A stretch of 38,188 nucleotides of DNA from a virus: positions 1 to 38,188 of the IMG/VR virus record IMGVR_UViG_3300042892_003360; one strand, given 5' to 3'. Of the stretch, positions 2,629 to 37,741 are shown in pieces (positions within the stretch are counted from its first letter, which is position 1; each line of letters starts with the position of its first letter). Both the position numbers and the translations under genes were made by a program. The notes beneath the pieces are model-generated. The model ran no database searches and was not told where the DNA came from. It saw nothing but the letters and a program-made list of their open reading frames with translations.

Positions 2629-2636
2629 TATTTATA
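2629..2636 (+). promoter_or_regulatory. Late-promoter octamer TATTTATA
   Basis: Exact TATTTATA preceded by G, ending 32 nt before the ATG at 2669, the longest spacing of the set. It heads the four-gene block 2669-6198. Confidence 0.6.
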
Positions 2637-2668
2637 GGATAAGAATAACTTCATTTAACAACACAAAA

Positions 2669-3835
2669 ATGGGAGATTTAAAACCAATCGGTAGTGAGAA
2701 ATTAAAAGGCGAGGATAAATTAAAAAGAATCCTTGAACTCACATACTTTAATGAAAATAAAAATACACCGACTAACCCTCGTGCGGAGATTATTAAAGAG
2801 TCTACAACAGGGGGTATTTACGGAATTGTCAAAGAAAAAGACAGTTACTATGTTAAAAGAGGTTTGAATGAAAGTTCTCTTGATTACATTGGTGGAATGT
2901 TTATGAAAAATAAGAATAGATTTTCATCATATTCAGAAGCGCTTAAGAGACTTGAACTATTAAAGGGACAAGAAGAATTACAAGAAGCAACAAAATATGT
3001 TCTAAAACAAAACAAACCTGTAGATATGCCAGCACCGTCTGTTGAGGCTCCAATGGCTCCTCCATCAGAAGTTGCAGCTGAGGCTCCATTAGCATTACCA
3101 CCTGCTGAAGGTGATATGCCAATGTCTGACGCGGGTGTGGAAGAATTACCACCAAGTGGTGAGGAATTACCTCCAGCACCTGAAGAAGGTGAAGGTGGAG
3201 ACGATTCTGACCCATTGAAGTTGATTCAAAAATTAACAGGTAAACTTGGTCAAAGATTAAGAGATGCTCAGGAAGACATGGAAAGTGATGACATTAAATA
3301 TGTTATTAATTCAGTTGTATCTGCATTGAATTTAGATAAGTTAGATTCGGAAGATAAAGAAGAAATTCTTACACAATTCGAAGATGAAGATTCATATGAG
3401 GGTGAAGAATCACCTGAAATGGGAGACGAAATGCCAGCAGCACCTGAAACTGAAGATAGTGAATTAGGTGAAGAGAATGATTTCGCAATGGACGCATTAG
3501 AAAACTTAATCAACACATCATTTGGTGATGATGAGGATGAAGTTGATGAACCATTTGTTGTGTCTAAACCACAAGATACTGACGATTACAAAATGAAAAT
3601 CAGTCCGGGTGGTGAAGAAGATGAGTACTTTAGAAGTACTTCAAGAGATTTTAATTCTGACTTTGATTTAGATGATGAGGATGATGAAGATTATTTCAGT
3701 TTTGATATCAAAGAAGAAGACCCAATTGGTGATGAACAAGGAATGACAGATGAAACTGTTGAATTAGATATTAACGAATTAACGGATGTTATTAACCAAA
3801 GTGTTAAAGAAGCGTTAGGAAAATACTTAAAATAA
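2669..3835 (+). CDS. Acidic Pro/Glu-rich protein of unknown function, probable virion or assembly protein
   Basis: A 388-residue protein. Residues 1-115 look folded (STTGGIYGIVKEKDSYYVKRG and NRFSSYSEALKRLELLK). Residues 118-180 are a Pro/Ala/Glu-rich linker. Residues 185-235 are predicted helical, and the remainder is extremely acidic with many Asp-Glu runs, ending in a short helix (VNELDIN-type segment into INQSVKEALGKYL). The N-terminal pattern resembles proteins I associate with environmental T4-like phages, but I cannot name a function. Acidic, linker-rich composition would suit a scaffold or head-core component, a T4-type theme also seen in the 12145 gene. It is first in a block with 1-2 nt spacing to the next gene and has a late octamer upstream. 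The Asp/Glu runs are similar to those of the scaffold. Confidence 0.8.
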   Translation: MGDLKPIGSEKLKGEDKLKRILELTYFNENKNTPTNPRAEIIKESTTGGIYGIVKEKDSYYVKRGLNESSLDYIGGMFMKNKNRFSSYSEALKRLELLKGQEELQEATKYVLKQNKPVDMPAPSVEAPMAPPSEVAAEAPLALPPAEGDMPMSDAGVEELPPSGEELPPAPEEGEGGDDSDPLKLIQKLTGKLGQRLRDAQEDMESDDIKYVINSVVSALNLDKLDSEDKEEILTQFEDEDSYEGEESPEMGDEMPAAPETEDSELGEENDFAMDALENLINTSFGDDEDEVDEPFVVSKPQDTDDYKMKISPGGEEDEYFRSTSRDFNSDFDLDDEDDEDYFSFDIKEEDPIGDEQGMTDETVELDINELTDVINQSVKEALGKYLK

Positions 3836-3836
3836 A

Positions 3837-4229
3837 ATGTTTTTATTATACATCAATGAACTTGGAAGGGACTATAAAGGTCAACGACAATATGAGTTTA
3901 TTTTCGGAAACGACATTGAGGTATTGGAAGACGAATGGTTTATAATTCCATCATCGGGTAGAGCAGTTCCACCTCAGATTGAGTTTATTGATTTAGTTGG
4001 GTTATTAAAAAACTCAGATTTAGAACTTGAACTTGTACAAAACTCTGATTATTTTGGAATGATTGACGCGGTTGATGGAATTGTTGCATTAGGGTGGGAA
4101 GATTTTGATAAGGAATCAGAAGAAAGACCAATTAGAGTTTCTTTTCATTTTGGTGAAGAATATGAGACGGTTGTTGAAAAATTAGAATCTAAAGGTTTGG
4201 AATTAATAAACGAAGAAATTAAAGAATAA
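3837..4229 (+). CDS. Conserved-looking phage protein of unknown function
   Basis: A 130-residue acidic alpha/beta protein that starts 1 nt after the preceding stop. It opens with a strand-like FLLYINELG and has FIFGNDIEVLEDEWFIIPSSGRA (split here as two adjacent strands with a turn) followed by an I-D-L-V-G-L-L helix. No catalytic or binding motif is recognisable. Its tight packing in the 2669-6198 block suggests a shared late role with its neighbours. Not assigned to a family. Confidence 0.75.
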   Translation: MFLLYINELGRDYKGQRQYEFIFGNDIEVLEDEWFIIPSSGRAVPPQIEFIDLVGLLKNSDLELELVQNSDYFGMIDAVDGIVALGWEDFDKESEERPIRVSFHFGEEYETVVEKLESKGLELINEEIKE

Positions 4230-4231
4230 TT

Positions 4232-4903
4232 TTGATGAAAAGAAATGAAATAGTACAAAGATTAATGGTGGAGGGGTTTTCTCCAAAAACATTAGTTAAT
4301 ATGACTGACAAACAATTAAACATGTTATCAGTAAGAATACTTTCTGAGGGAACAGTTATGATTCCAAAAGATAGTCCTACCTATGTTGCTGATGTCGAAG
4401 CAGCAAAAAAATCTAAAAAAACAATTGAAACTTACGAAGGTGAAGTTAAAGAAGATTTAAAGGGAAACCAAAAAAAGTTAGATAAAAACCATAACGGTAA
4501 AATTGATGCTCAAGATTTTAAAATACTAAAAGGTAAAAAGAAAGAAGTAAAAGAAGGTCGTTGTGGGAAGTGTGATTGTGAAGAATGTGAGTGTGAAAAG
4601 AAAGAAGTTAACGAATGGGTTGATTCTTTGGTAGAAAATCAGTATTATTCATTTACAAGTAAAAATGAAATTATGGAAATGATTAGTACAAAATTAAATG
4701 AACAAGGTCCTGCAATTGCTGAACCGGATATCGATGTTGAACCAGATATTAGAGAACCAAAAGTAAATCCTGACCAAGACCCCTTTATCGACCCATGGGA
4801 AAACCCTAATGAAGGTCCCGACCCAAGTCCTAAGTTTAAAAAAGATAGCTCAGAATTACCTGACTTTATGAGATTCAAAGACATTATAAATTCATTCAAC
4901 TAA
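4232..4903 (+). CDS. Protein with EF-hand-like calcium loop and a Cys cluster, unknown function
   Basis: A 223-residue protein in four parts. Residues 3-40 are a helical head (RNEIVQRLMVEGFSPKTL, then MTDKQLNMLSVRIL). Residues 84-95 (DKNHNGKIDAQD) fit a 12-residue EF-hand/dockerin-type loop, with D84, N86, N88, G89, D92 and D95 in ligand positions. Residues 111-121 hold five cysteines (C111, C114, C116, C119, C121) in an acidic context, a plausible metal site. Residues 160-212 are a Pro/Asp-rich low-complexity tail before a short final helix. The stop overlaps the next ATG (TAATG at 4901-4905), so translation is coupled. No family is recognised; calcium binding is inferred from the loop alone. 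Confidence 0.78.
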   Translation: MMKRNEIVQRLMVEGFSPKTLVNMTDKQLNMLSVRILSEGTVMIPKDSPTYVADVEAAKKSKKTIETYEGEVKEDLKGNQKKLDKNHNGKIDAQDFKILKGKKKEVKEGRCGKCDCEECECEKKEVNEWVDSLVENQYYSFTSKNEIMEMISTKLNEQGPAIAEPDIDVEPDIREPKVNPDQDPFIDPWENPNEGPDPSPKFKKDSSELPDFMRFKDIINSFN

Positions 4904-6198: not shown

Positions 6199-6202
6199 AA
6201 TG

Positions 6203-6232
6203 AAGGTCTCAATTCGAGACCTTTAATTTTTA
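6203..6232 (+). terminator. Intrinsic terminator closing the 2669-6198 operon
   Basis: AAGGTCTC (6203-6210), loop AATTC, GAGACCTT (6216-6223), then TAATTTTTAT. This is a perfect 8-bp stem starting a few bases after the stop codon. A late octamer follows directly, so terminase has its own transcription start. Confidence 0.8.
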
Positions 6233-6240
6233 TATTTATT
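6233..6240 (+). promoter_or_regulatory. Late-promoter octamer variant TATTTATT, 3 nt before the terminase ATG
   Basis: One mismatch (last base) to TATTTATA. It lies between the terminator and the terminase start and ends exactly 3 nt before ATG 6244, the same spacing as at 8057, 17388 and 22800. Confidence 0.5.
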
Positions 6241-6243
6241 AGT

Positions 6244-8013
6244 ATGAGTAGAATAGAACAATTACATGAATATGCTCGAATAATTAAAGATGCACCATAT
6301 GCGTTAAAGACGTATTTGCAAACATACGATAATACTCAAAAAAAATATGTTCCATTAGAACTGTTTCCTGACCAAATTCAATTGATTAAGGATTATGAAA
6401 CTTATAATGAGAATATCACAAGAAAATATAGACAAGCGGGGGTTACTACGGTAACTGCAGCTTGGATTTCAAAAAAACTACAAACAGCAAAAAATACGGA
6501 ACCTGAAAGGGTGTTGATAATTGCGAACAAACGTGATACCGCAATTGAGATGGCTAATAAAGTTAGAAACTTTTTAGAACAATGGCCAGAGTGGATTAAC
6601 GTTGGGTTTTCACCCGATAAAAACTCAGAAAGTAGATTTAGATTAAATAACGGTTGTGAGGTTAAGGCAGTTGCAACCTCACCTGATGCGTTACGTGGTT
6701 TTACACCCACAATACTTGTATTTGATGAGGCCGCGTATATCGATGCGGGTGAGGATTTTTGGGCGGCATCTATGGCGTCCCTATCTACGGGTGGTAAGAT
6801 TATTCTTATCTCAACCCCAAATGGATATGACCCAATTTACTACGGTGTTTATGACCAAGCGTTACGTGGTATTAATGACTTCCACATTACCGATTTAAGG
6901 TGGTTTAAAGACCCACGTTACACTAAAGATTTAAGATGGATAAAGTGTACTGATATTGTACATTATATGTTAAATAGGGAACAGTACAACGATGATGAGA
7001 TTGTAATGTCTGATTTTGATATTGAGAAATATACAGAATACTTAGATGATGGTTATAAACCACTATCGTCGTGGTTCGAGTCTATGTCTAAAAAGTTTAA
7101 ATACGATAGACGTATGATTTCTCAGGAATTGGAATGTGATTTCTTAGGTTCAGGAGATTCTGTTATTCCTGGTGATATTCAAGAAAATATTGCTAAAAAC
7201 ATGATTCGTATTCCAAATGAAAAATATATGCAGGGTACGTTTTGGCATTGGAAAGAACCAATACAAGGTCACAGATACATTATGGGTGTCGACGTTAGTA
7301 GAGGAGATAGTGAAGATTTTTCATCCATCAATATAGTTGATTTTGATGATAGAGAACAAGTGGCCGAATATATCGGTAAGATACCTCCAGATGATTTAGC
7401 CGCAGTTGCATATAAATGGGGACTATTATATGGTGCATTTATAGTAATTGATATTACAGGAGGTATGGGAGTTGCAACATCAAGAAAGTTGCAAGAAATG
7501 AATTATAAAAATTTATACATAGATGGTATCAATACTCAAAATATTTGGGAGTATAATAAGAAAGCAACGGAAAAAATACCCGGTATAAATTTTAACAACA
7601 AAAGAACACAAATAGTTGCCGCATTTGAAGAACAATTAAGAAAAGGATTCATTGTTAGGTCTAATAGATTATTAGGTGAATTGAATACTTTTGTTTATCT
7701 TAACGGTCGACCTGACCACATGAAAGGACAACACGATGACTCAATTATGAGTATGTCCATGGCATTGTATGCTGGTGACATGTGTTTCAATCAATTGGAA
7801 AGGAATGAGAACGCGAATAAAGCGATGTTAGAATCGTGGACTGTATCTGAAAGAACGTATGAACCAAATAAATCATTTTATTCTTATGGAACGTCATTTG
7901 ACCCAATAGGATTAATGGCGACAGACGATAATTTATTTCACGGTGATAACCCATCAAACGTCTCAAAAGATACTTATAGAGAAAACTCATGGTTATTCGG
8001 TAAACGAAGATAA
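6244..8013 (+). CDS. Terminase large subunit (T4 gp17-like)
   Basis: This 589-residue protein is the DNA-packaging motor, an N-terminal ATPase joined to a C-terminal RNase H-like nuclease. The ATPase has a deviant P-loop at residues 61-69 (KYRQAGVTT) in which the usual Lys of GKT/GKS is Val, the Walker B TILVFDEAAY at 156-165, and the coupling motif ISTPNG at 189-194. The linker segment SQELECDFLGSG (about 293-304) is typical of the family. In the nuclease, D350 in MGVDVSRGD, D403 in VIDITGG and the HDDS near residue 497 are the expected metal-binding acids. Length is close to T4 gp17 (610). It stands alone between a terminator and the portal's own octamer. Confidence 0.95.
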   Translation: MSRIEQLHEYARIIKDAPYALKTYLQTYDNTQKKYVPLELFPDQIQLIKDYETYNENITRKYRQAGVTTVTAAWISKKLQTAKNTEPERVLIIANKRDTAIEMANKVRNFLEQWPEWINVGFSPDKNSESRFRLNNGCEVKAVATSPDALRGFTPTILVFDEAAYIDAGEDFWAASMASLSTGGKIILISTPNGYDPIYYGVYDQALRGINDFHITDLRWFKDPRYTKDLRWIKCTDIVHYMLNREQYNDDEIVMSDFDIEKYTEYLDDGYKPLSSWFESMSKKFKYDRRMISQELECDFLGSGDSVIPGDIQENIAKNMIRIPNEKYMQGTFWHWKEPIQGHRYIMGVDVSRGDSEDFSSINIVDFDDREQVAEYIGKIPPDDLAAVAYKWGLLYGAFIVIDITGGMGVATSRKLQEMNYKNLYIDGINTQNIWEYNKKATEKIPGINFNNKRTQIVAAFEEQLRKGFIVRSNRLLGELNTFVYLNGRPDHMKGQHDDSIMSMSMALYAGDMCFNQLERNENANKAMLESWTVSERTYEPNKSFYSYGTSFDPIGLMATDDNLFHGDNPSNVSKDTYRENSWLFGKRR

Positions 8014-8047
8014 CCATTGATTATTAGAGAAAAATAACTTAGATTGT

Positions 8048-8064
8048 TATAAATAGTATTTATA
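8048..8064 (+). promoter_or_regulatory. Palindromic late-promoter element before the portal gene
   Basis: TATAAATA (8048-8055), G, TATTTATA (8057-8064): a perfect 17-nt palindrome containing both the T4 late consensus and its reverse complement. The TATTTATA half ends 3 nt before ATG 8068. It is the only site in which both orientations occur together. Confidence 0.65.
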
Positions 8065-8067
8065 GAT

Positions 8068-9891
8068 ATGGCAAAACAAAATTTAACGATATTTCAAAAG
8101 TTAACTAAAACATTTGGTTTTCAAGGTCCTAATGTAGAGGCACCACCATCTTTTCAATTTTCAAAAGATGAGTTATTAAAAACCGACAGTAAAGAAGATT
8201 TTGAAAATGCGTTATTACAAGCACAACAGAATCAATATGTTGCCGATAAATGGGCAAAAATTGACCAATCGTTATATAACCAATCGGTATATTACGAACC
8301 AAATAGATTATCAGCTTATTATGATTATGAATCTATGGAGTTTACTCCTGAAGTTTCTGCTTCATTAGACATCTACGCGGAAGAATCGACAACGATGTCG
8401 GAGAAGGGTGAGATATTAACGATATATTCTGAATCTAAAAGAATTGAAAACATTTTAACAGATTTATTCAACAATGTCTTGGACATTAATACTAACCTAC
8501 AAATGTGGGCGAGAGGTATGTGTAAGTATGGTGATGATTTTGTTTATTTAAAAGTAGACCCAGATAAGGGTGTAATTGGTTGTCAACAATTACCAAACAT
8601 TGAAGTTGAGAGAATTGAGGGTGCGGTTCAGAAGGTACCAAATCAAACGGGGTTTAATACTAATACTAAATTACCATCTAGAGAATTAAGATTCGCATGG
8701 AAAAATAAAGATTTAGAATTTCAAGCTTGGGAAATTGCTCACTTTAGATTATTAGGTGACGATAGAAAGTTACCGTATGGTACATCTATGTTAGATAAGA
8801 TTAGAAGAATTTGGAAACAACTTTTACTTGCTGAAGATGCGATGTTAATTTATAGAACATCAAGAGCTCCTGAAAGACGTGTGTTTAAAGTGTTCGTCGG
8901 TAATATGGATGATAAGGACATTGAACCTTACGTACAACGTGTTGCTAATAAATTTAAAAGAGACCAAGTTGTTGACCAAAAGAACGGTCAAGTGGATATG
9001 AGATATAATCAAATGGCGGTAGACCAAGATTATTTTATTCCTGTTCGTGACCCGGCACAAACAAGTCCGATTGAAACATTACCAGGCGCTGCGAATTTAG
9101 GTGAGATTGCCGATATTGAATACATCCAAAAGAAATTATTGGCGGCATTACGTATTCCTAAAGCATTCTTAGGTTTTGAAGAAGTTGTTGGTGATGGTAA
9201 GAACCTTGCTTTAATGGATATTCGTTTCGCAAGAACTATCAATAGAATACAGAAATCATTAATTCAGGAATTAAATAAAATTGCATTAGTTCACTTATAC
9301 CTTTTAGGTTTAGAAGATGAACTACACAATTTCACATTATCCTTAACAAACCCATCTGCTCAATCTGATTTATTACGTATCGAACAGTGGAAAGAAAAGA
9401 TTACCTTATATAAGGATGCAACATCTGACCAATCACAAATGGGTATTTTACCTGTATCACATACTTGGGCTAAAAAGAATATCCTTGGTTTAAGTGATAA
9501 CGACATCGTATTAGATTTACAACAACAACGTCTTGAGCGTGCATTAGGTGCTGAACTTATGATAACTAACACAATCATAAAACGTTCTGGTGTGTTTGAT
9601 GAAGTCGATAAGAAGTATGGTATCTCTGAAGATGAAAGAACTAAATTAGAATCCGCGGGTGCGGGAGGAGCGGCAGGAGCTGACGCAGGAATGGGTGGTG
9701 ATATGGGTATGCCACCAGCAGCGGAAGCCGCACCAATGGATGCAGCAGCACCGTTGAGTGAGAGTAGAAAAAATAAAATATTAGGAATGTTAGGTGAAGG
9801 TGATGAAATTGCTGACTTATTTGATATTAATAAGGCCCAACAGAATATTTATGAAATAGAGAATAAATTAAAAGATATCTTAAACGATTAA
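8068..9891 (+). CDS. Portal protein (T4 gp20-like)
   Basis: A 607-residue protein forming the dodecameric portal vertex through which DNA is packaged and to which the tail joins. The family is recognised from the succession SLDIYAEESTTMSEKGEILTIYS (as two adjacent blocks, about residues 99-120), YGTSMLDKIRRIWKQL (about 237-252), the ARTI-rich helix after VGDGKNLALMDIRF (about 373-386), and the WKEKITLY region, in the order expected for gp20 proteins. It is longer than T4 gp20 (524) because of a Gly/Ala/Met/Pro-rich linker at about 528-563 and an acidic helical tail containing PLSESRKNKILGML. LSE in that tail fits the (I/L)xE cleavage rule of gp21 proteases. It is followed 2 nt later by the 9894 gene. 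Confidence 0.92.
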   Translation: MAKQNLTIFQKLTKTFGFQGPNVEAPPSFQFSKDELLKTDSKEDFENALLQAQQNQYVADKWAKIDQSLYNQSVYYEPNRLSAYYDYESMEFTPEVSASLDIYAEESTTMSEKGEILTIYSESKRIENILTDLFNNVLDINTNLQMWARGMCKYGDDFVYLKVDPDKGVIGCQQLPNIEVERIEGAVQKVPNQTGFNTNTKLPSRELRFAWKNKDLEFQAWEIAHFRLLGDDRKLPYGTSMLDKIRRIWKQLLLAEDAMLIYRTSRAPERRVFKVFVGNMDDKDIEPYVQRVANKFKRDQVVDQKNGQVDMRYNQMAVDQDYFIPVRDPAQTSPIETLPGAANLGEIADIEYIQKKLLAALRIPKAFLGFEEVVGDGKNLALMDIRFARTINRIQKSLIQELNKIALVHLYLLGLEDELHNFTLSLTNPSAQSDLLRIEQWKEKITLYKDATSDQSQMGILPVSHTWAKKNILGLSDNDIVLDLQQQRLERALGAELMITNTIIKRSGVFDEVDKKYGISEDERTKLESAGAGGAAGADAGMGGDMGMPPAAEAAPMDAAAPLSESRKNKILGMLGEGDEIADLFDINKAQQNIYEIENKLKDILND

Positions 9892-9893
9892 AA

Positions 9894-10631: not shown

Positions 10632-10641
10632 GACCGTTTTT
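10614..10641. terminator. Bidirectional terminator shared by two convergent genes
   Basis: AAAAACGGTCTT (10614-10625), loop ATTT, AAGACCGTTTTT (10630-10641): a perfect 12-bp stem that ends in a T run on both strands. The + strand stop (10629-10631) and the - strand bS21 stop (10626-10624) both lie inside it. Confidence 0.88.
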
Positions 10642-11352: not shown

Positions 11353-11360
11353 TATTTATA
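11353..11360 (+). promoter_or_regulatory. Late-promoter octamer TATTTATA before the protease gene
   Basis: Exact octamer preceded by G, ending 16 nt before ATG 11377. It forms one arm of the inverted repeat at 11354-11378. Confidence 0.6.
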
Positions 11361-11378
11361 GTAATAAAAACTATAAAT
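11354..11378 (+). promoter_or_regulatory. Hairpin able to mask the protease start codon
   Basis: ATTTATAGT (11354-11362) pairs perfectly with ACTATAAAT (11370-11378) across a 7-nt loop; the second arm covers the first two bases of ATG 11377. RNA read through from upstream could fold and hide the start, while RNA begun at the octamer would lack most of the first arm. Confidence 0.45.
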
Positions 11379-12113: not shown

Positions 12114-12121
12114 TATTTATA
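12114..12121 (+). promoter_or_regulatory. Late-promoter octamer TATTTATA before the scaffold gene
   Basis: Exact octamer preceded by G, ending 23 nt before ATG 12145. It would drive both scaffold and major capsid protein, as no octamer lies in the 38-bp gap between them. Confidence 0.6.
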
Positions 12122-13340: not shown

Positions 13341-15074
13341 ATGGGAGCATTATTAGAATCAGGTATGGTCGGTAACATAGGTCTTAAGCACCTTAGAGTT
13401 ATCAAAGAAGATACCATCAAAAAATGGGACGAATTAGGATTCTTAGAGGGTCTTGGTGGTCACCAAAAAGATAACATCGCGCAATTGTATGAAAACCAAG
13501 CGTCTTATTTAATCAACGAAGCAGCAGTTTCTGATGCTAGTGGTTCTTTCGAGACAGTAGTTTTCCCAATTATCCGTCGTGTGTTCTCTAAATTATTAGC
13601 TAACGATATCGTATCTGTACAAGCTATGAACTTACCAATCGGTAAATTATTCTACTTCATTCCTAAAATTCAGGAAAGAAACAGTGGAGACCATTACGCA
13701 CCTTACGGTGGAGCAAATGGTGTAACTGCAAATACTGACGTAGATGCTGGTTATGGTACAAATTCAAGAAATCTTTATGACCGTTTCTACGAAGCGGGAG
13801 ATGGTAACAGCCCTGATACAGGATTGTTCGATTACTCTAAAGGTTCTTACGATGATGTTACTTTAAGTGGTGCTGCGATTGTTGCATTCTCTGACGGAGT
13901 TGCTGCTGACGTAGCTGTATCAGGTTTAACTGGAACTTCTCAATCTTCATTGGTTGTTAAATTCTCAGGTTTCACTAAAGATGGTCAAGGTAAATTAATC
14001 GGACCAAACGGTTCTGTTATGGATACTGAAGAGTTCTTAGCTTCTGCTGTAGTTAATTTCGGTGGTGAGTCTAAAAACTTTAACATCGTAACTCAAAAAT
14101 ACGGTAAAGGTATTATCGAGTACGGTAAAAAATCAACTTCTACTTACCCAGGTGGTAAATACAATGACCTTTGTGATGAAGAAGGTACAATCTACGTTAA
14201 CGTTGATTTACAAACTTACAGTTCAACTGCAGGTTTTGCAAACGTAACTTTAGCTTCAGGTTTTACTCCAAGTAACATCTCATTGGCTTTCAGAGTTTAC
14301 TCTGATATGGAATTTGAAGATAACATCGGTGAAGTTTCTTTTGATTTACAATCTGTAACTGTTTCTGTTACTGAAAGAAAATTAAGAGCTTCTTGGTCTC
14401 CTGAATTGGCTCAAGACGTTAGTGCATTCCACAACATCGATGCTGAAGCTGAATTAACAGCTTTATTATCTGAGCAAATCGCAGCAGAGGTTGACCGTGA
14501 AATCTTACGTGATTTACGTAAAGGTGCAGCTTGGTCAGCTAAATGGGATTACAATGAGTGGAAATACGGTAACGGTGGTTCATCTTACGCAGGTTACACT
14601 CAAAAAGATTGGAACCAAACATTGGTTACAAAAATCAACCAATTATCAGCTCAAATCCACAAATCTACCTTAAGAGGTGGAGCAAACTGGATTGTTGTAT
14701 CTTCTGAAGTTTCTGCAGTATTTGATGACTTGGAATATTTCCACGTTTCAAACGCAGGTGCTGAGCAAGACCAATACAACATGGGTATTGAGAAAGTTGG
14801 TACATTAGCAGGTAGATACCAAGTTTACCGTGACCCTTACTTCCCAGCTAATAAAATATTAGTAGGACACAAAGGTAAGTCATTGTTAGACGCAGGTTAT
14901 GTATACGCACCATACGTGCCGTTACAATTAACTCCAACAATGTACAATCCTTTTAACATGACACCGATTAAAGGTATCATGACAAGATACGCTAAGAAAA
15001 TGGTTAATAACCGTTTCTTCGGTACTATCACAGTAAGAGGATTACAATCTTTCAGTTTAGATACTTTAAGATAA
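13341..15074 (+). CDS. Major capsid protein (T4 gp23-like, HK97 fold)
   Basis: A 577-residue protein, somewhat longer than T4 gp23 (521). The N-terminal propeptide (about 1-60) contains LYENQASYLINE, and the bond after INE60 before A61 fits the gp21 (I/L)xE rule, as does LTE in T4 gp23. The mature protein opens with FPIIRRVFSKLLANDIVSVQAMN (two adjacent blocks, about 75-97), the counterpart of the T4 VRRAIPNLIAFDI region. A large insertion at about 110-300 is Gly/Ser/Thr rich. The C-terminal part has RDPYFPANKILVGHKG, DAGYVYAPYVPL and IKGIMTRYAKKM, aligning with the end of gp23. Strong terminator downstream. Synonymous codons look more uniform than in neighbours, as expected for a very highly expressed gene. 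Confidence 0.95.
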   Translation: MGALLESGMVGNIGLKHLRVIKEDTIKKWDELGFLEGLGGHQKDNIAQLYENQASYLINEAAVSDASGSFETVVFPIIRRVFSKLLANDIVSVQAMNLPIGKLFYFIPKIQERNSGDHYAPYGGANGVTANTDVDAGYGTNSRNLYDRFYEAGDGNSPDTGLFDYSKGSYDDVTLSGAAIVAFSDGVAADVAVSGLTGTSQSSLVVKFSGFTKDGQGKLIGPNGSVMDTEEFLASAVVNFGGESKNFNIVTQKYGKGIIEYGKKSTSTYPGGKYNDLCDEEGTIYVNVDLQTYSSTAGFANVTLASGFTPSNISLAFRVYSDMEFEDNIGEVSFDLQSVTVSVTERKLRASWSPELAQDVSAFHNIDAEAELTALLSEQIAAEVDREILRDLRKGAAWSAKWDYNEWKYGNGGSSYAGYTQKDWNQTLVTKINQLSAQIHKSTLRGGANWIVVSSEVSAVFDDLEYFHVSNAGAEQDQYNMGIEKVGTLAGRYQVYRDPYFPANKILVGHKGKSLLDAGYVYAPYVPLQLTPTMYNPFNMTPIKGIMTRYAKKMVNNRFFGTITVRGLQSFSLDTLR

Positions 15075-16940: not shown

Positions 16941-17384
16941 TTATTTACATTTTTTCCAACCACCACCTTTAGCCTTGTAATTTTTTGCCGCCCAACCATT
17001 TGCATATGCACTTGGGTAAACATCAAATTTAGATTTAGCTGCCGCTTTAGATGCTGACCATTTTGCTGGGTCCGTTGGACAATTTTTACTTTCGTCTATT
17101 TCACCATATGATTCGTTAATGTCATCTTCTTTCTTTGTTTCATTCATAAAGAAATCAAAAACTTGGTCCATATTGTTCTTAGCTTCAGACACGTGGTCAT
17201 CAGCCCAATCGTGACCGTTTTTTATAATCGAATCTAATTGATTAGGGTCCATTTTCAATAACATTTCACATTGTCTTTGAATTTGTTGTAAATTACTGAA
17301 GAACATATAATTTTCAGTCATTTTACGTTCGTTCTCTAAAATCGTTTCGTTTAGATGTTTTCTAATTGATTGTTGTAAATTCAT
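16941..17384 (-). CDS. Small late protein with DVYPSAYAN-type C-terminal motif
   Basis: A 147-residue protein. The N-terminal half is helical (MNLQQSIRKHLNETILENER, FFSNLQQIQRQCEMLLKMD). The last 50 residues carry WSASKAAAKSKFDVYPSAY and WAAKNYKAKGGGWKK, a short motif widespread in phage proteins and often found beside the KVNFGF-type domain, as here. ATG 17384 is chosen over an in-frame start at 17420 because the octamer TATTTATA ends exactly 3 nt before it and because the longer form overlaps the upstream gene. LNE followed by Thr near residue 13 fits an (I/L)xE maturation cut, which would suggest packaging inside the head. Function unknown. Confidence 0.78.
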   Translation of the reverse strand: MNLQQSIRKHLNETILENERKMTENYMFFSNLQQIQRQCEMLLKMDPNQLDSIIKNGHDWADDHVSEAKNNMDQVFDFFMNETKKEDDINESYGEIDESKNCPTDPAKWSASKAAAKSKFDVYPSAYANGWAAKNYKAKGGGWKKCK

Positions 17385-17387: not shown

Positions 17388-17395
17388 TATAAATA
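17388..17395 (-). promoter_or_regulatory. Late-promoter octamer TATTTATA, 3 nt before ATG 17384
   Basis: On the - strand the order is TATTTATA-GAA-ATG. It lies in the 13-nt gap between two genes and decides the start of 16941-17384. Confidence 0.65.
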
Positions 17396-18781: not shown

Positions 18782-18789
18782 AATAAATA
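18782..18789 (-). promoter_or_regulatory. Late-promoter octamer variant TATTTATT
   Basis: One mismatch to TATTTATA, preceded by A, in the gap between 18794 and 18771. It ends 10 nt before ATG 18771. Confidence 0.45.
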
Positions 18790-20529: not shown

Positions 20530-22413
20530 TTAGAACATTTTACCTACTCCCGTTACTAACGGTGAAATTACCGCCGCGGTTGGTCCTGCGGGAATTACTG
20601 CTGGTTTTAGTGCAATCTTTATAAATGAATTTGCATCCATTTCTTCACTATGACCATCAATAATTCCTTTTATTATTGAATTTAATTTATTTTCACTACC
20701 ATATAATGGTCCCATGTTAACTCCCATTGCTGTTAGTCTTTCATTGGCGTTCATAAATGCCCTATCACTACTATAACCTGGTAATAAATCTGAGAAGACT
20801 AATAATAACCCCGGTATGGGTAGTTTAATTGGGACATTTAATGCTCCTTGTATTGTTTGTAATATTAAATTAAAAATCGCCTCACAACTTTCAAGTTGTT
20901 CCGTTAGAATTTTTACCAATAACGCAATTAATGCCAATATAATACCCTTCCATCTTTTTAATTTATTTTTAAAGATTTTAATTGCAATTTTTTTAATAAA
21001 TTCTAATAAGTCTTTCTTAATGAATTTCCAAAATTCAGCTAAAAAACGCCAAAATAACGCCTTAACCATATTAACAAATAATTTAGCCAATTTCTTCATA
21101 ATTTCCTTTGCGGTTAATACCACATTTTGAAATTGTTTATAAAGAATAACAATTGGTAAGAATATTTTAGGTGATAACACACTACTAACTAACGCCTTCG
21201 GTAGTTGTAAAATAAAAGTGTTTAAAAGAGATAGTTGTAAATTATCAATGCCTAATCCACCTTGTTCACTGGCATCGGATGATGTTTTTGTTAACGTATC
21301 GTCAATATTTTGGTCTAAGTTTTTAGAATTTAATAAAAATACAAAGTCCTCCATGTGATTTGAGTTTATTGGAACTTCAAAATTATCACAATCTCTAAAT
21401 TTCAAAACTCTTCTTTTTCTATTTACTTCATCATCTAAATCTATACCTTCAACATCATCAAAATCAAAATAGGAAGAAATATCTTCGTCGTCCTCATTGA
21501 ATTGGTCTGAGGTGTCGGATTTAAGTGGATTCTTTTTTGGCGGACTACCACAAAGTGCAAATAACTTTTGTAGTAACCTATCTAAGTCATTCATACCCGC
21601 ACTAAAAGAACTTGGTTCACCACCATCTCCTTGTAATGTCATTAACATTGCGGTTTTAACAACATGCTCAATATCAGGAAATTCAATACCATTATAATAG
21701 TTGGTTAAAAAATCACCAACTTGAGTTTGTCCCGTTACTCCTTGTAATCCAGCAATATTATATTCCTGACCGTTTGGGTCCCATTGAACTGAAAATAACG
21801 TATTATAATCTTTTGTTTGGAAAAAATATGGGTTCGGGTTATCAAAGGTTTCGTATAACTTTCGATTGAATTTAACATTACCTTGATTTGTTGCTTGATT
21901 CTCGTACATTATTTGTCCCGACATCGATTCTGGGTCCAATTTTAATACGTTCATGAAATCAAATTCTTTAGGTGATAACGTTACGGTATTTGATGGGAAA
22001 ACACTATTTCCTCCACACACACCGTCTCCACCGAATAACGTTTGTTTTACAGAATTTAATACGATGTTTTTTGAATCTTGTAAAGTTATGTGCGCGGATT
22101 CCTTTGCGTATTTTTTTAATTTACCTTTAATTAATGGTTTCTTTTTGAGGTTGGTATTGTCTTGTGTATCGGTACCTAAAAATCCTTCTGCTGTTTTAAT
22201 TAATTCCCCAAATACATCCTTTTTGTTTTTTGTTTTACCTTTAACTTTTGAAGTAATATCGGTAATACGTTTGTTCATGAAACCACCAACATCGGGAAGG
22301 TCTTCTTTGAAGGAATTAAAAATATCATCAAGCATACCGGGGTCATTATTAATCGCTTTAATGGCGTCTAATTTTGACCTAATTTTCTTTCTTGCTGTAT
22401 CTATTTTAGACAT
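20530..22413 (-). CDS. Large baseplate-region protein with a membrane-active-looking helical core
   Basis: A 627-residue protein. Residues 1-115 are basic and helical. Residues 150-290 are mixed alpha/beta (SNTVTLSPKEFDFMNVLKLD, FFQTKDYNTLFSVQWDPNG). Residues 300-340 are acidic. Residues about 385-545 are an unusual run of hydrophobic, aromatic and Lys-rich helices (FLPIVILYKQFQNVVLTAKE, KALFWRFLAEFWKFIKK, GIILALIALLVKILTEQLE), followed by PIPGLLLVFSDLLPGYSSD. The C-terminus is Gly/Pro/Val-rich. The core is too polar on one face for simple transmembrane spans, which suggests amphipathic helices that could insert into a membrane, as in a tape-measure or ejected protein. It starts 1 nt from 22413's stop region and is coupled to the hub gene. 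Confidence 0.75.
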   Translation of the reverse strand: MSKIDTARKKIRSKLDAIKAINNDPGMLDDIFNSFKEDLPDVGGFMNKRITDITSKVKGKTKNKKDVFGELIKTAEGFLGTDTQDNTNLKKKPLIKGKLKKYAKESAHITLQDSKNIVLNSVKQTLFGGDGVCGGNSVFPSNTVTLSPKEFDFMNVLKLDPESMSGQIMYENQATNQGNVKFNRKLYETFDNPNPYFFQTKDYNTLFSVQWDPNGQEYNIAGLQGVTGQTQVGDFLTNYYNGIEFPDIEHVVKTAMLMTLQGDGGEPSSFSAGMNDLDRLLQKLFALCGSPPKKNPLKSDTSDQFNEDDEDISSYFDFDDVEGIDLDDEVNRKRRVLKFRDCDNFEVPINSNHMEDFVFLLNSKNLDQNIDDTLTKTSSDASEQGGLGIDNLQLSLLNTFILQLPKALVSSVLSPKIFLPIVILYKQFQNVVLTAKEIMKKLAKLFVNMVKALFWRFLAEFWKFIKKDLLEFIKKIAIKIFKNKLKRWKGIILALIALLVKILTEQLESCEAIFNLILQTIQGALNVPIKLPIPGLLLVFSDLLPGYSSDRAFMNANERLTAMGVNMGPLYGSENKLNSIIKGIIDGHSEEMDANSFIKIALKPAVIPAGPTAAVISPLVTGVGKMF

Positions 22414-22796
22414 TATAGTGTGTAATTACCTGTTTTTGTTTCATTATCTTGGTCGTTAACCAATTTCTCAAGTAGGTCTCTATCATCGTCAGATAAGGTT
22501 AATTTACCAAATCCTTTATCTCCACTACCACCTGTACTTCCAGACTGTTTTAACAATACTCCCTGTAGTTTTACTAATGATATCTTTTTTTCAGTACAAT
22601 CATTAAGTATCTTTTGTTGTTCCTTAATGACTGGTCCAATTACACTCATATCTTCAGCGTCTTTCATGAAAGTTAACATCTTCTTTGTAATCAAAGAAGC
22701 CGTATTCTTTTGTTCTACGATGTCATTATAGATTTCCTGCATTAAAGCTAACGCGGAATCCATCTCTAATGATATTAAATTTTTTCTAGGTCTCAT
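22413..22796 (-). CDS. Small helical late protein, first gene of the baseplate unit
   Basis: A 127-residue protein. Residues 10-85 form two long helices (ALALMQEIYNDIVEQ, VIGPVIKEQQKILND). A Gly/Ser-rich stretch (QSGSTGGSGDKGFG, about 86-99) precedes a short acidic tail. The start follows TATTTATA-TAG, so this gene heads the 22796-18794 unit; its stop overlaps the next start by one base. The short Gly-rich arm and helical hairpin recall head-tail or baseplate adaptor proteins, but this is only a shape analogy. Confidence 0.72.
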   Translation of the reverse strand: MRPRKNLISLEMDSALALMQEIYNDIVEQKNTASLITKKMLTFMKDAEDMSVIGPVIKEQQKILNDCTEKKISLVKLQGVLLKQSGSTGGSGDKGFGKLTLSDDDRDLLEKLVNDQDNETKTGNYTL

Positions 22797-22799: not shown

Positions 22800-22807
22800 T
22801 ATAAATA
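22800..22807 (-). promoter_or_regulatory. Late-promoter octamer TATTTATA, 3 nt before ATG 22796
   Basis: The - strand order is TATTTATA-TAG-ATG, between the sigma gene and the baseplate unit. Fourth case of the 3-nt spacing. Confidence 0.65.
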
Positions 22808-22816: not shown

Positions 22817-23515
22817 TTAATTTATGAAATTAAAAAGTATACCATCGTACATTTTTTTAAATTTCTTAATTGCAACCCTAATTTCTTTAGTTGATAATGA
22901 TGTCATTTCTCTCAATGACAGGAGGATTAGATTTTTATTAAACTTATTACCTTCTCCAACTTCAAATATTTTGTCAAAATTACTGAAAATCTCAAGTAAC
23001 GCATACCCGAGCTTTTGTTCGTTTACGTTCAAATCCTCCTTTTCCATGAACTCCTCCAAATTAGTTGTAAGTTTAATGATAACATCCTTATAATCTAAGG
23101 GTGTGTGGTCAATAACATACGTTAAATCGGGTCTCTCTTCGATATCCGAGGATATGTCATCATAGGACACCGTTCTATTCTGGTCTTTTTGGTCTTTCTG
23201 TATCGCTCCCATAAGGTAGTTTTTACAGATGGTTCCAAAATAAGAATAAGCTTTGTAGTTCTTAGTATGGTCGAATTTATTAATTTTAGTAATAAGAAAG
23301 GACATTGTATCTGTATGTAAATCTATAAATTCAAAGTCTTTTCTATATAGTTTGTATCTTCTTATGATACTTTCAACCATGATTGTGAGAGGTTCTCTTA
23401 AATATTCATTGAATATCTTGTTGCGTTCCGCGTCGTCAGTACTTTCTAAGTAATTAACTACCGCCTTTTCTTGGTCCTCCCCAAAATAGATTTTTTGGGT
23501 TCTGGGTCTTGGCAT
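22817..23515 (-). CDS. Late transcription sigma factor (T4 gp55-like)
   Basis: A 232-residue protein with a reduced sigma region 2: EFIDLHTDTMSFLITKINKFD (about 62-82, as two adjacent blocks), NYKAYSYFGTICKNYLMGAIQ (86-106), then QKDQKDQNRTVSYDD (106-120). This is the order helix, FDxxK-NxxAY-xxF, basic recognition helix seen in T4 gp55, which directs host polymerase to late promoters. Like gp55 it lacks an obvious region 4; the C-terminal half is helical. The last residues, YDGILFNFIN, are hydrophobic and aromatic, comparable to the gp55 tail that binds the sliding clamp. T4 gp55 is 185 residues. Overlaps the glycosyltransferase stop (TAATG). It is the natural reader of the TATTTATA octamers. 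Confidence 0.8.
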   Translation of the reverse strand: MPRPRTQKIYFGEDQEKAVVNYLESTDDAERNKIFNEYLREPLTIMVESIIRRYKLYRKDFEFIDLHTDTMSFLITKINKFDHTKNYKAYSYFGTICKNYLMGAIQKDQKDQNRTVSYDDISSDIEERPDLTYVIDHTPLDYKDVIIKLTTNLEEFMEKEDLNVNEQKLGYALLEIFSNFDKIFEVGEGNKFNKNLILLSLREMTSLSTKEIRVAIKKFKKMYDGILFNFIN

Positions 23516-27015: not shown

Positions 27016-27023
27016 TATAAATA
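27016..27023 (-). promoter_or_regulatory. Late-promoter octamer TATTTATA before the PhoH gene
   Basis: Exact octamer preceded by A, between the dUTPase stop (27027) and the PhoH start (26982); it ends 33 nt before the TTG start. Confidence 0.55.
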
Positions 27024-29407: not shown

Positions 29408-29409
29408 TA

Positions 29410-30009: not shown

Positions 30010-30029
30010 ATTCTAAATATATTTTAAAA

Positions 30030-31585: not shown

Positions 31586-31586
31586 A

Positions 31587-32856: not shown

Positions 32857-32871
32857 CTAAATCAGTTTTAT

Positions 32872-32879
32872 TATAAATA
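32872..32879 (-). promoter_or_regulatory. Late-promoter octamer TATTTATA for the - strand block
   Basis: Exact octamer on the - strand, preceded by A, ending 15 nt before ATG 32856. It is 17 nt from the divergent octamer at 32897. Confidence 0.6.
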
Positions 32880-32896
32880 TCAAACGAAGGGAAAGA

Positions 32897-32904
32897 TATT
32901 TATA
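32897..32904 (+). promoter_or_regulatory. Late-promoter octamer TATTTATA for the adhesin gene
   Basis: Exact octamer, preceded by A, ending 5 nt before ATG 32910. It forms a back-to-back pair with 32872-32879 in a 53-bp divergent gap; each faces its own gene. Confidence 0.65.
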
Positions 32905-32909
32905 ATAAC

Positions 32910-35900
32910 ATGAATAACCAAAATATTTTAAAGTTTTACGGTACCAAGTTGGATATAAAGTTAGATAGTTCAGAATTATATGACTATGAATTATCCAAGG
33001 TTCAAGGTGATTACAACGTAGATGTGCTAGATTTAGGTACGCAAATCAACTATTCTGGATTAACAATTAATGATTCTTTAGGTGGATTTAGTTGTCAAAG
33101 ACAAACTATTACCCTAAAAGAAGTTGATAATAGAGTCAATAATGTAGATTACAACTACCTTGATGTCATTATGACGGTAGATTATTCCCAATTTGTTAGT
33201 CATTTTGGGGTGGGGTTTATACATACGATACTTAATAATAATATTTTTAGTTTAATTTTAAGTGACGATAATGTTCATTATTTTAAAATTGTTGCATTTA
33301 ATAGACCGTTGGAGGACCCAAGGAATGACGAAAATGGTATTTTAAACGTAACTGACAACTCACTTATTACATCTTTAGATGGATTTAATATATCATATAC
33401 CGAATCGATATTATCAAAAGATGACGTTCCTTTAACCTTTAATAGTGTAATTGACGATTTTTCAACCGAAGTTATTGAATGTGAAGAAAAATTAGAAAGT
33501 TTAACTAAATGTTGTTCACAACCTTTAAAGTTATCTAATAAACCTTGGGCTTATAAATTTAATACGGGTGACGGTATAGATAATTGTGACCCAATTATTA
33601 AAAGAAGAACTGAAAAAGGTTGGACTTTAGATTTTATTTTTAATAGAGAATCGTTACCGTGGTCAGCTGGCGGTGTTTTTTATTATATTGGTGTTAGGGG
33701 GGATGATGACGTAAGAAATTATGCGGATAATAATTTATCTTTTCGATTTACTCCCGATAAAAAAATAAAATGGAATTCTTTTCATTATTCAGGTTATTGT
33801 GGTACAAATGGTTACGGTGAGGATTTTTATCTTGCAAGTGGTGAAACACCTCAATTGTGTGTTAACGATGAAGATAAGGATTTTAACATAACAATTGTTT
33901 TTGATAGAAATAAAAGATTAACTGATTGTAATATTGAGAATGACGGTGGGTGGAACGATATGGTCGGTTTAAAAACTATAGACTACGTTAACACCGAAGT
34001 TACCGCAGTAACTTCAACAACAACCACAATCTACAGTACTACCGAAGAATTAAATAAAAAGTGGGCAGATGAAAGACAAGATAGGTTAGGTACGTTAAAA
34101 ATCTATCTAAATGGTAGACCAATTTATAAATTAAAAAATTGGGAGGAGATAATAACGTCAGATAGAGGGGTGCAACCACATGTTCAATCGTGGGGTGGCG
34201 GTACAGGATTAATGAATAATGTACACAATGGGGTTTCTTGTTTTAACATTAAGTCAATAAAATATTATGAGGACCCATTAGACTTTGTACATGTTAGACA
34301 TAATTTCTTAACGAGATTAAATCAATATGATTTTTCAATATGTGGAATTAATTGTGATGATGATATTTCAGGTCTTCCTATTCCTACACCAACTCCAACA
34401 CCTACCCAAACTAATACTCCAACACCGACATCAACGAGTACTCCAACACCTACACCCACACCTACACCCACAGTTGAACCAATTAGTTTTGATTTAGAAA
34501 TTGAAGTGTCTTCTGGGTCGATTATTGTTGATTTTACCGTTATTAGTAGTAAGTTAATAAATCAGGAAATAACAATACCTGTTATTTCGTATCTAAATCT
34601 ATTATCATCTGAGGTATTAACGGTTCAAGCTGACGTTGTTATTTTATCTGGCCAAACATCCGGCACAACTAGAGTTGAATTTGTCGATAGATTATTTAGT
34701 GAATTAGATTTAAGTGGTGACATTAATGTTGGACAAATATTAATAGATGGTTATGAATATGAAGTGTTTGCACAATTAGTGTTTAATACACCTACACCTA
34801 CAAGTACTCCGGTACCTACAGATACTCCAACTCCAACTGAAACTCCTACCCCGACTCCAACATTCACTAGTGCCCCAACTGTAACGCCTACACCTACACC
34901 AACGGCAACAGAGACAAGTACACCTACGCCGACACCAACGTTAGAACCAACACCAACTCCAACATCAACACCTATTATACCTAATAACGACTTTACATAT
35001 GTGATTATTCCCGGTAATGATATACTATATGTGATTATTCCAAATAATGATTTTACTTATAGATTAATACCAACTAACGATTTAAATAGTACAATAATAC
35101 CTAGTAGTGATTTAGAGTATTTGGTACTACCGTTAAACGACATTAATTACACATTAATACCAAACACAGATTTATCATATACATTAATTCCAAATAATGA
35201 TATACAATATAATTTATTAAACCCGTCAACAAATTTTTATGGTTTAATATCAATAGGGGAGGGTCCTGATGTTTGTGACTGTCCAGAGGGTGAATGTCCA
35301 AGATTTTATGTGACAGGAGATGGATTAACGTTTTGTGAATCAAATATTTTTGTTTCAAACGAATTTACAGGATTTAACGGTTATGGATATATCACATATG
35401 GTGGTTATTTTAAATCTATTAATTTAGATGGCACTAATACCGCAACATATAGAGATGCGTGTGCACCTTGCCCAACAACACCGACACCAACTCCTATACC
35501 AACGGAAACTCCAACACCAACACCTACGGAAACAAGTACCCCAACCCCAACGGCAACAAGTACACCAACACCAACAATGGTTCCATATAACAAAATTGTT
35601 GACTTAAACATAAATGATTCAATATCATATTCTGGAAGTGGAACAACGGTTACGGACATTTTGGGTAACACTAATGCTTATTTAAGTAATGTATCAACAC
35701 ATCAAAATGATGGATGTACTTCATCGATTGTCCTAAACGGTAATGACCAATTTATTATTACCACAACATCAATTGAATCATTTTATGATACTACAGATAC
35801 ATCTATATTCCTTTGGGTTTATTTAACCGATAATGGTGTAATATTGAGTGAACAAGGTGGAGGTGGGTTAAACTTTGATTGGCACGATTCACAAATTGAG

Positions 35901-37691
35901 TTGGTTAATGGAACATTGAAGTTTAGTGTTTGGCCATATGATGGTATAATAACATCATCAATATCAACACCTCTTAATAATTGGTACTATATTGGATTTA
36001 TACAGAATGGTACAACTTTAACCGCATATGTAAATGGTCAAAGTGCTGGTTCATCAACAGTTGTTAGACAGGTACCTCAACAAATAGGTGGTAATGGTTT
36101 ATATTATGCAATAGGTGCACCAGATAGTACAAACTTAGGTGATGGTTCATATTCTGCATTGAAATTTGGTAGATTAGAAATATGGGATGGTGCAATTTTA
36201 TCTTCAGATGTTTTACAGAACTATAATGATTCAGTAACCACTTGGATTTGTCCTACCCCAACACCAACTTCTACAAGTACACCGACACCAACACCTACAC
36301 CAACACCTACACCAACACCTACACAAGTTTGTGATACATTTACATTTAATAATGTTAATTCAACTACAACTTATAATAGTGCAACCGGAGGGTCAGATGG
36401 TGGATGGATTTCGTCGGCATATTCTACAGAAACGTATAGTAATCCTGTATCTGTAACATTTCAAACTTCATCAAATGGTAACTATCTTATGGGTGGTTTT
36501 TCTACTAACCCAACTTCATATGAAGATACATATCAAAATATAAGATATGGACTTTATGTACAAAATGGCTTCTTAGAGATTTATGAAAATGGTGGTCAGG
36601 CAACCGTTCCGGGTAGTATGACTAACTTATCAACTGACATATGGAAAGTAGAATATGATGGAACAAATGTTAAGTATTATAAAAATAGTAGTTTAATTTA
36701 TACATCACCAAACCCTGTAACACAACCATTACATATATTCTTTGCTCTTTTAACACCTAATGAAGGGGTTACCGATGTTTGTGTTATCGGGACACCAGAC
36801 CCTTTACCAACTCCTACACCGACACCGACCGCAACAAGTACACCAACACCGACTCCAACAGAAAGTCCTTTAGATTTTGAAATTTCAGGTACTTGTGTTG
36901 ATGACGGTGCGGTTAGTACACATCACTACACTGGTGGTTCAGGTTTTTATGATAGAGGTAATGGATTATATGATACCGAATTGGAGGCATTGAATGAAAC
37001 GCAATGGTCAACAGTTTTGAATCCTAATGGTTATGTTGGTTACGGTCTTCCAATATCCAACATTACGAAAACATATTGGGTTGCGATGAGAGATAGAAAC
37101 AACCAATCAAATATCATTGCAAAATCAATATTAGTTGATTGTGCACCAACACCTACTCCGACGAGTACACCCACACCTACTCCGACGAGTACACCCACAC
37201 CAACACCTACTCCGACGAGTACACCCACACCAACCCCAACACCAACGGCAGAACCGTCAGGTCTTATAGTTACAATTTTAGAGGTTGGTTCTAACGTTAT
37301 CATGTCAGGTTCGGGTTCACTTAATGTTACGGGACTAATTGAGGGTTCGGTACAAACGGCCGGAGGTGTTAACGGTACGTTGGGTTATTGGGTGATTGGT
37401 CAATCCAATCTATTTTTTGCTAGGAAATTTTTTGGAAATAATCTAAATGTTTACCCTAATAGTTTCGGTTCAGGATATACGGCACCAACATCATACTCAG
37501 GACAAACATTTGGTATTCAGGATGGGTCACTAGGTAAAGATATTATTTTACCAATTGGTTACACTTCAGGTAGTCCATTAAGTGGAACTGCAACGTTTGC
37601 AAATAAAACAATATCAAGTATGGGATTAACTCCTGGTACTTATCTGTATGATTGGGGAAGTGATTCGATAACATTACAAATCGGTTCTTAA
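32910..37691 (+). CDS. Giant modular adhesin or tail-fibre protein
   Basis: A 1593-residue protein of seven beta-rich or Cys-rich regions separated by six Thr-Pro linkers. Residues 1-491: N-terminal region with a concanavalin-like half ([29 protein letters not shown]). 522-626: beta domain. 689-768: eight 10-residue repeats. 769-853: Cys-rich. 890-1114: LamG-like lectin domain ([33 protein letters not shown]). 1139-1298: second lectin-like domain ([37 protein letters not shown]). 1318-1411 and 1447-1593: further beta domains. No signal peptide and no enzyme motif. Modules of this type recognise host surface sugars, so it is most likely the receptor-binding or head-decorating protein. Driven by its own octamer. 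Confidence 0.85.
34383..37248 (+). repeat. Six Thr-Pro linker blocks within the adhesin
   Basis: Low-complexity ACA/CCA/CCT codon runs at about 34383-34472, 34788-34973, 35471-35576, 36252-36324, 36806-36860 and 37145-37248. They encode alternating Thr-Pro with Ser, Glu and Ala replacements (protein residues 492-521, 627-688, 854-889, 1115-1138, 1299-1317, 1412-1446). Such stretches are stiff, extended spacers and are likely sites for unequal recombination between fibre modules. Confidence 0.9.
34974..35213 (+). repeat. 8 x 30-bp repeat coding for decapeptide units
   Basis: Eight exact-length 10-residue units: [80 protein letters not shown]. The consensus is [ILV][IL]P-x-[NST]-D-[FIL]-x-[YS]-x. 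Unlike the Thr-Pro blocks, these are hydrophobic with strict spacing, as in a beta-roll or prism. Confidence 0.9.
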
Positions 37692-37733
37692 AAATAAAAA
37701 GTAACAAATAATAAAAGATACAACAGAATAAAG

Positions 37734-37741
37734 TATTTATA
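37734..37741 (+). promoter_or_regulatory. Late-promoter octamer TATTTATA before the last gene
   Basis: Exact octamer preceded by G, ending 20 nt before ATG 37762. No hairpin terminator is seen between the adhesin stop (37691) and this octamer. Confidence 0.6.

Follow-up and report, generated by a model that had tools for sequence, protein, structure and literature searches.

What is the eight-base word TATTTATA that recurs in front of genes in a viral DNA of 38,188 bases (IMG/VR record IMGVR_UViG_3300042892_003360, positions 1 to 38,188; the whole of this DNA is called the window below), and which protein reads it? Late transcription in phage T4 is a textbook system, and a T4-type late promoter requires gp55, gp33 and the sliding clamp. 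The window carries head genes of T4 type (TerL at 6244, portal at 8068, protease at 11377 and the gp23 capsid gene at 13341), and the original prediction, made from the window alone, took the octamer for a phage late promoter and a gp55-like sigma factor at 22817-23515 for its reader. Our analysis leads us to regard TATTTATA as, quite probably, the -10-like late-promoter element of a phage family, with the gp55-family sigma as its most likely reader and transcripts that in many cases probably start near the AUG. The late-promoter-like character of the octamer is supported by a strong orientation bias in large relatives of the window and by enrichment before virion genes.

The octamer in the window

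Eleven exact copies of TATTTATA are present in the window. All 11 are noncoding according to a hand-made gene table with 1,184 noncoding bases, in keeping with the earlier impression that coding regions are free of exact sites, and ten of them face the next gene start at spacers of 3, 3, 3, 5, 15, 16, 20, 23, 32 and 33 nucleotides (nt). The variant TATTTATT occurs six times, with four copies facing a start, one noncoding copy facing none and one copy in coding sequence. The ten exact and two variant sites that had been reported are all found at their positions, between genes and facing the downstream gene, but both totals were too low: an 11th exact copy, at 8048-8055 on the minus strand and facing no start, had been overlooked, as had TATTTATT at 1522 (plus), 10828 (plus), 10892 (minus) and 30961 (plus). 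The base before the octamer is indeed G or A in 11 of the 12 reported sites; in the relatives it follows a 'not T' rule (A 51%, G 26%, C 20%, T 3%). The sites and the proposed reader are as follows (aa, amino acids).

2629..2636, plus strand: octamer TATTTATA, 32 nt before a 388-aa gene at 2669; conserved in relatives
6233..6240, plus strand: variant TATTTATT, 3 nt before the TerL ATG (6244); conserved
8048..8055, minus strand: exact TATTTATA facing no start (points at the end of TerL)
8057..8064, plus strand: octamer TATTTATA, 3 nt before the portal ATG (8068); conserved
11353..11360, plus strand: octamer TATTTATA, 16 nt before the head maturation protease gene (11377); conserved
12114..12121, plus strand: octamer TATTTATA, 23 nt before a scaffold-like gene (12145); conserved
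17388..17395, minus strand: octamer TATTTATA, 3 nt before the ATG at 17384 (147-aa gene); mostly kept in relatives
18782..18789, minus strand: variant TATTTATT, 10 nt before a 457-aa gene (start 18771); conserved
22800..22807, minus strand: octamer TATTTATA, 3 nt before the ATG of a 127-aa gene (start 22796); conserved
22817..23515, minus strand: gp55-related sigma factor of 232 aa, the proposed octamer reader
27016..27023, minus strand: octamer TATTTATA, 33 nt before the TTG start of a PhoH-like gene (26982)
32872..32879, minus strand: octamer TATTTATA, one arm of a divergent pair, 15 nt before a 261-aa gene (start 32856); conserved
32897..32904, plus strand: octamer TATTTATA, the other arm of the pair, 5 nt before the ATG of a 1593-aa gene (32910); conserved
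37734..37741, plus strand: octamer TATTTATA, 20 nt before a gene at 37762

For the base composition of the window the number of octamers is unremarkable; what is unusual is their placement and orientation. Comparison with shuffled sequence is negative for the whole-window count, since 11 copies stand against 7.27 expected and at least 11 were reached in 13 of 100 shuffles, and this count was dropped as evidence. The same comparison is positive for the noncoding stretches upstream of genes. When each stretch was shuffled singly with its dinucleotides kept (200 shuffles, genes from an automatic caller), a sense octamer was found in 7 of 23 stretches, against 0.60 expected and a maximum of 3. The extra copy at 8048-8055, upstream of the portal gene, is present in the related locus L002, absent from L006 and L008, and probably a chance copy.

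Conservation and gene class in related phages

Contigs related to the window reach 335 kb. Two large ones are G001 (202,894 bases), the TerL of which is 92% identical to that of the window, and G002 (335,630 bases, 7.8% of them noncoding). Counts for the window's family were made on loci of at least 8 kb (135 of 161 sequences, including the window), dereplicated to 55. A second set, built on loci of at least 4 kb that resemble Flavobacterium phage immuto (81 of 82), was dereplicated to 67 and holds 66 immuto-like loci after removal of L280, which is a relative of LR756508 and not of immuto and has zero copies of TATTTATA. Related loci are non-independent in all these counts because of their common ancestry, and 'facing' counts are approximate because the gene caller starts every open reading frame (ORF) at its first ATG and overlooks small genes as well as alternative start codons.

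The orientation bias extends beyond the window. Of 107 octamers in G002, 65 face a start and another 3 lie in noncoding DNA but face none (38 coding, 1 at a boundary); the corresponding figures for the 57 octamers of G001 are 38 and 3 (16 coding or boundary). Over the 55 loci there are 320 octamers, comprising 221 facing, 13 non-facing, 25 at contig edges and 61 coding or at a boundary. Immuto, an isolated phage with Flavobacterium sp. LMO8 as its host, has 28 facing, 6 non-facing and 11 coding copies among 45, and in Microcystis phage Mel-JY01, of which 100 of 190 kb were examined, 10 copies face a start, 4 do not and 22 are coding or at a boundary. Shuffling of the upstream stretches gave observed numbers well in excess of expectation in G002 (58 of 219 stretches against 7.1), G001 (35 of 126 against 3.3) and immuto (25 of 109 against 2.4). 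At orthologous starts the octamer or TATTTATT is retained in most of the listed relatives amid changed surroundings, with spacers typical of the gene (mostly 3 nt for TerL, 3-5 for the portal, near 16 for the protease and near 23 for the scaffold); the 55 loci hold 260 TATTTAT[AT] sites within 60 nt of a start, which fall in 25 orthologue clusters.

Virion genes are marked more often than replication genes. With TATTTAT[AT] scored up to 60 nt upstream, the immuto annotation as a guide and gene lists that we picked from product names, the motif precedes 10 of 25 virion genes in immuto, among them those for TerL, portal, sheath, tube, hub and tape-measure, against 1 of 25 genes for replication, metabolism and other functions. 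The motif was found at 7 of 12 virion genes and 1 of 8 others in G001, 7/11 and 1/9 in G002, 4/15 and 0/2 in Mel-JY01 and 3/4 and 0/1 in the window.

Two further patterns were seen in upstream regions. The divergent octamers at 32872-32904 are exactly 17 bases apart, a gap that recurs in 58 of 160 related loci (L001-L160, non-independent), and the middle bases vary between loci while the gap stays at 17; such a pair is predicted to form a bidirectional late promoter with fixed geometry. In immuto (L161-L163) a second recurrent motif, with the words TATTTAGG, TTTAGGTA and TCAATAATTAA, occurs upstream of genes without the octamer and is perhaps another promoter class.

Relation to the T4 late promoter

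The original prediction regarded TATTTATA as the reverse complement of the T4 late consensus TATAAATA and concluded that the phage uses the opposite strand sense. This is not supported. Because TAT..ATA equals its own reverse complement, reversing TATAAATA only turns AA into TT at positions 4-5, and the octamer is equally a same-direction TATAAATA with TT for AA at -10/-9. In T4 numbering the first octamer base is -13 (PMC2988020). With the T4 arrangement, TATTTATA is just what stands on the non-template strand, and the opposite-strand reading was rejected because of the self-complementary TAT..ATA.

The window's family has several features in common with the T4 late system (PMC2988020, PMC7892883): a -10-like element of 8 bp that lies shortly before late genes and is oriented to them, the absence of a conserved -35 element, a gp55-related sigma and no phage RNA polymerase found. 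The 30 bases upstream of the octamer contain no conserved word except a T-rich stretch 12-19 bases before it. The word itself differs from the T4 consensus: in the same 55 loci 221 copies of TATTTATA face starts, against 39 of TATAAATA. In a 50 kb late region of T4 used as a control, TATAAATA faces a start in 10 cases and does not in 1, and TATTTATA divides 6 to 5; 50 kb of cyanophage Bellamy has two facing copies of TATAAATA and none of TATTTATA, too few to judge. A search for the sliding clamp (PF02916) was silent, but its controls were silent as well and it is hence uninformative. Altered octamers in the T4 family are already on record. That of Aeromonas phage Aeh1 likewise has a two-base change, although at -13/-12 rather than -10/-9 (PMC2988020), and a review of T4 late transcription gives matching octamers for phages that infect E. 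coli, Vibrio, Aeromonas and marine cyanobacteria. Searches of the open-licence PMC literature listed no paper that treats TATTTATA as a late promoter of phages. The late-promoter-like motif is real in immuto as well as in the window's family; it is a two-base variant of the T4 type, and a divergent gp55 is its probable reader.

The gp55-related sigma factor

Profile matches bear out the protein encoded at 22817-23515 as a distant relative of gp55. A profile of 15 relatives has T4 gp55 (PDB code 7d7c) as its best match in the PDB (E=1.7e-5), and profile-profile comparison with a two-sequence gp55 profile gave a probability of 90.8 (E=1.2e-6) with these 15 rows and 65.6 (E=5.8e-5) with a broader set of 22. 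The PHROG 'late sigma' family was matched by 13 of the 15 members (E up to 1; best 3.4e-5) and Pfam Sigma70_r2 by 15 of the 22 (E up to 5; best 7.1e-5). The homology lies in sigma region 2 and is nearest to gp55. The predicted model has a mean predicted local distance difference test (pLDDT) value of 72.5 and a predicted template-modelling (pTM) score of 0.45. It superposes on 7d7c with a Z of 10.4 (root-mean-square deviation 3.3 over 106 residues), but other sigmas give similar Z values and helical bundles can reach them by chance. Foldseek returned no match at E <=0.001 for the whole model, and the top 14 entries all contain a sigma.

In T4 gp55, Y97 stacks on A-12, N13 and H95 touch A-9 and T99 bonds A-8 (PMC7892883). 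All 22 relatives keep Y97, which is Y92 in the window sigma, and replace N13 by G, T or D, H95 by Y or F and T99 by G, Q or S. A kept -12 reader and altered -9/-8 pockets would agree with an octamer in which A-12 is unchanged and -10/-9 differ. This argument is suggestive only because A-8 is kept where T99 is lost, because Bellamy gp55 also carries F at the H95 position and because just two gp55s were compared. A gp55 relative is found in the lineages that carry the octamer, and we infer that the window sigma is its reader. The polymerase beta' domain (PF00623) was found in none of 7 records, which may be fragments, with controls positive in 14 of 14, and host polymerase is the likely partner of the sigma.

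The mechanism that we propose is that the gp55-family sigma most likely binds host core polymerase and would read TATTTATA from the non-template strand, oriented just as TATAAATA is for T4 gp55. A-12 would probably still be read by the invariant tyrosine; the AA at -10/-9 has become TT, and residues of the facing pockets are replaced. Transcription would probably begin 4-5 nt after the octamer, and an ATG placed 3-5 nt behind it would then yield an mRNA whose leader is absent or only one or two bases long.

The sigma is longer than gp55 and has an extra helical C-terminal domain (22817-23104, minus strand) outside the gp55-aligned part. In structural comparison SigA region-4 chains reach Z values of 4.9 and 4.8, tied with unrelated chains, and Foldseek gave no match below E 1 for this domain; a region-4 fold is possible but unproven from the model. 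The 127-aa gene at 22413-22796 (minus strand) adjoins the sigma, and in immuto, Mel-JY01 and LR756508 the sigma relative likewise has a neighbour of similar size, with a product 19-22% identical to the 127-aa protein; a family search with the 127-aa protein found no convincing family, and a gp33-like role would be speculative. Relatives of the Mel-JY01 sigma were sought in IMG/VR and none was confirmed.

Spacing to the start codon

The distance from TATTTAT[AT] to ATG was counted independently of any gene caller. Among 532 sites in the 55 loci an ATG lies at 3, 4 and 5 nt in 82, 38 and 31 cases, against 3, 5 and 1 cases at 0, 1 and 2 nt. The peak is present in G001 (14, 5 and 5, or 24 of 101 sites, against 0, 2 and 0) and in G002 (13, 17 and 7, or 37 of 178, against 1, 2 and 4), where the ATGs at 3-5 nt that open at least 30 aa belong to 19 and 34 distinct genes, respectively. 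GTG and TTG show no peak at 3-5 nt. The spacing differs from that of T4, in the examined stretch of which ATG lies at least 14 nt from TATAAATA, with none at 3, 4 or 5 nt among 18 sites and the commonest distances at 24-28; Mel-JY01 also has none at 3, 4 or 5 nt among 84 sites.

In 88% of 112 long-leader sites (non-independent) an A stands fifth after the octamer, and this base is likely to be the start site. Its distance from the octamer resembles the geometry of the host -7 element, 4-5 nt downstream of which transcription starts (PMC6847099). Taken with this start site, the ATG peak at 3-5 nt suggests that late mRNAs of the window's family are leaderless or near-leaderless. Leaderless phage messages are not new in themselves, since the AR9 paper (PMC5312081) states that phage transcripts are often leaderless and 5.5% of Flavobacterium psychrophilum mRNAs are so (PMC9723704). 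These share with the present case an mRNA start at or near the AUG; the difference is that here such starts are predicted for gp55-type late promoters served by host polymerase.

Host

Shine-Dalgarno-like sites are scarce, at 0 of 34 in the window, 3 of 170 in G001, 10 of 342 in G002 and 6 of 175 in immuto, each below the shuffled value; the comparison phages have 27 of 48 (T4), 28 of 89 (Mel-JY01) and 8 of 30 (Bellamy). In G002 the sigmaA-type element TAHHTTTG occurs in 27 upstream stretches in the sense direction and 14 in the antisense direction, or 14 against 4 when TTG is required 17-23 bases before it, a bias that is absent from G001 (7 sense, 9 antisense) and immuto (1 and 6). Among the eight cellular loci nearest to the window dCMP deaminase (61-64%), seven have titles that name Flammeovirgaceae or Marinoscillum, which belong to Bacteroidota, and one is titled Rhodothermaeota. 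On the strength of the Shine-Dalgarno scarcity, the G002 elements, the deaminase neighbours and the host of immuto, a Bacteroidota host is probable, although not proven, for the window's family.

In G002 (L172-L188) TAHHTTTG, often as TATCTTTG, stands before 28 genes. Their median length is 138.5 aa, whereas that of genes with the octamer is 280, and these elements are probably early promoters.

Alternative explanations

Chance matches in AT-rich DNA would agree with the whole-window count, but they are scarcely credible as an explanation of the octamer sites: the dinucleotide-keeping shuffles of upstream stretches contradict them in the window, G002, G001 and immuto alike, and they leave the orientation bias and the conservation unexplained. 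An element of translation initiation beside the start codon, rather than a promoter, would suit both the strong concentration of ATG 3-5 nt after the octamer and phages lacking Shine-Dalgarno-like sites. We nevertheless consider it improbable, as the spacers range from 3 to more than 30 nt in a gene-specific manner, the octamer is present in just 58 of the 219 upstream stretches of G002 and prefers virion genes, and at TerL in several relatives it is preceded by a terminator-like hairpin and T-run. A somewhat stronger candidate, still unlikely, is a real late promoter that is read not by the gp55 relative but by some other factor, either a modified sigma of the host or a further one encoded by the phage. 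Bacteroidota sigmaA likewise recognizes an 8-bp element beginning with TA, with the start a few nt downstream (TTTG / TAHHTTTG; PMC6847099, PMC9723704), and LR756508 encodes a sigma relative although the octamer is not evident in the piece examined. However, the late octamer ends in TATA and not in TTTG, no -33 TTTG is visible or conserved in the 30 bases upstream, a gp55 relative is present where the motif occurs, and T4 provides the precedent.

The reading of TATTTATA as a late promoter recognized by the gp55-family sigma has its own difficulties, and the following observations weigh against it. The octamer count of the window as a whole is not significant. At 1e-3 the single sigma sequence matched nothing in Pfam or PHROG, so its assignment needs relatives and profiles (looser limits gave PHROG 'late sigma' at 0.0018 and Pfam Sigma70_r2 at 0.0016, under its curated cut-off), and the 22-row profile reaches gp55 in the PDB only at E=0.049, still as the first of two matches. 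The loss of T99 opposite an unchanged A-8 belongs here too. Many virion genes lack the octamer, including the capsid gene, which has none directly upstream in any of the listed relatives; some of these genes probably sit within operons. The orientation bias is weaker in the 66 immuto-like loci (129 facing, 67 non-facing, 13 edge and 85 coding or boundary), and there is no signal in the 40.6-kb LR756508 piece and two related loci, with four octamers of which one faces a start (at 67 nt). Genes with a 3-nt spacer put the usual start base on the U of AUG, so that the start must shift by one. Finally, the leaderless case is weak for the immuto lineage: the immuto-like loci have ATG at 3, 4 and 5 nt in 58, 18 and 9 of 472 sites, but two gene families, with 51 and 20 members, account for 71 of the 79 ORF-bearing cases, and immuto itself shows little, with 2, 4 and 3 at these distances and 2 and 2 at 1 and 2 nt among 86 sites.

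Implications

If the late-promoter reading holds, a distant branch of phages, probably of Bacteroidota, has kept the T4 design and changed two central bases together with the facing sigma residues, and this co-change would constitute a natural experiment on how a minimal sigma shifts its specificity. The tight promoter-AUG spacing predicts leaderless late mRNAs in a phylum where such messages are a minority (PMC9723704). The octamer could also serve to pick out late genes across a large group of phages that are still uncultured. More tentatively, and at odds slightly below even, the window's family of jumbo T4-superfamily phages of Bacteroidota may use a gp55 sigma respecified at -10/-9, with promoters so near the start codon that a sizeable share of the late mRNAs is leaderless, as a T4-type programme adapted to non-Shine-Dalgarno hosts; immuto-like phages may be included in part.

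Other genes of the window

A Clp-type AAA ATPase gene at 3-1433 (minus strand) is truncated by the end of the window. The 1593-aa protein encoded at 32910-37691 (plus strand) is rich in linkers of the PTPTPT type.

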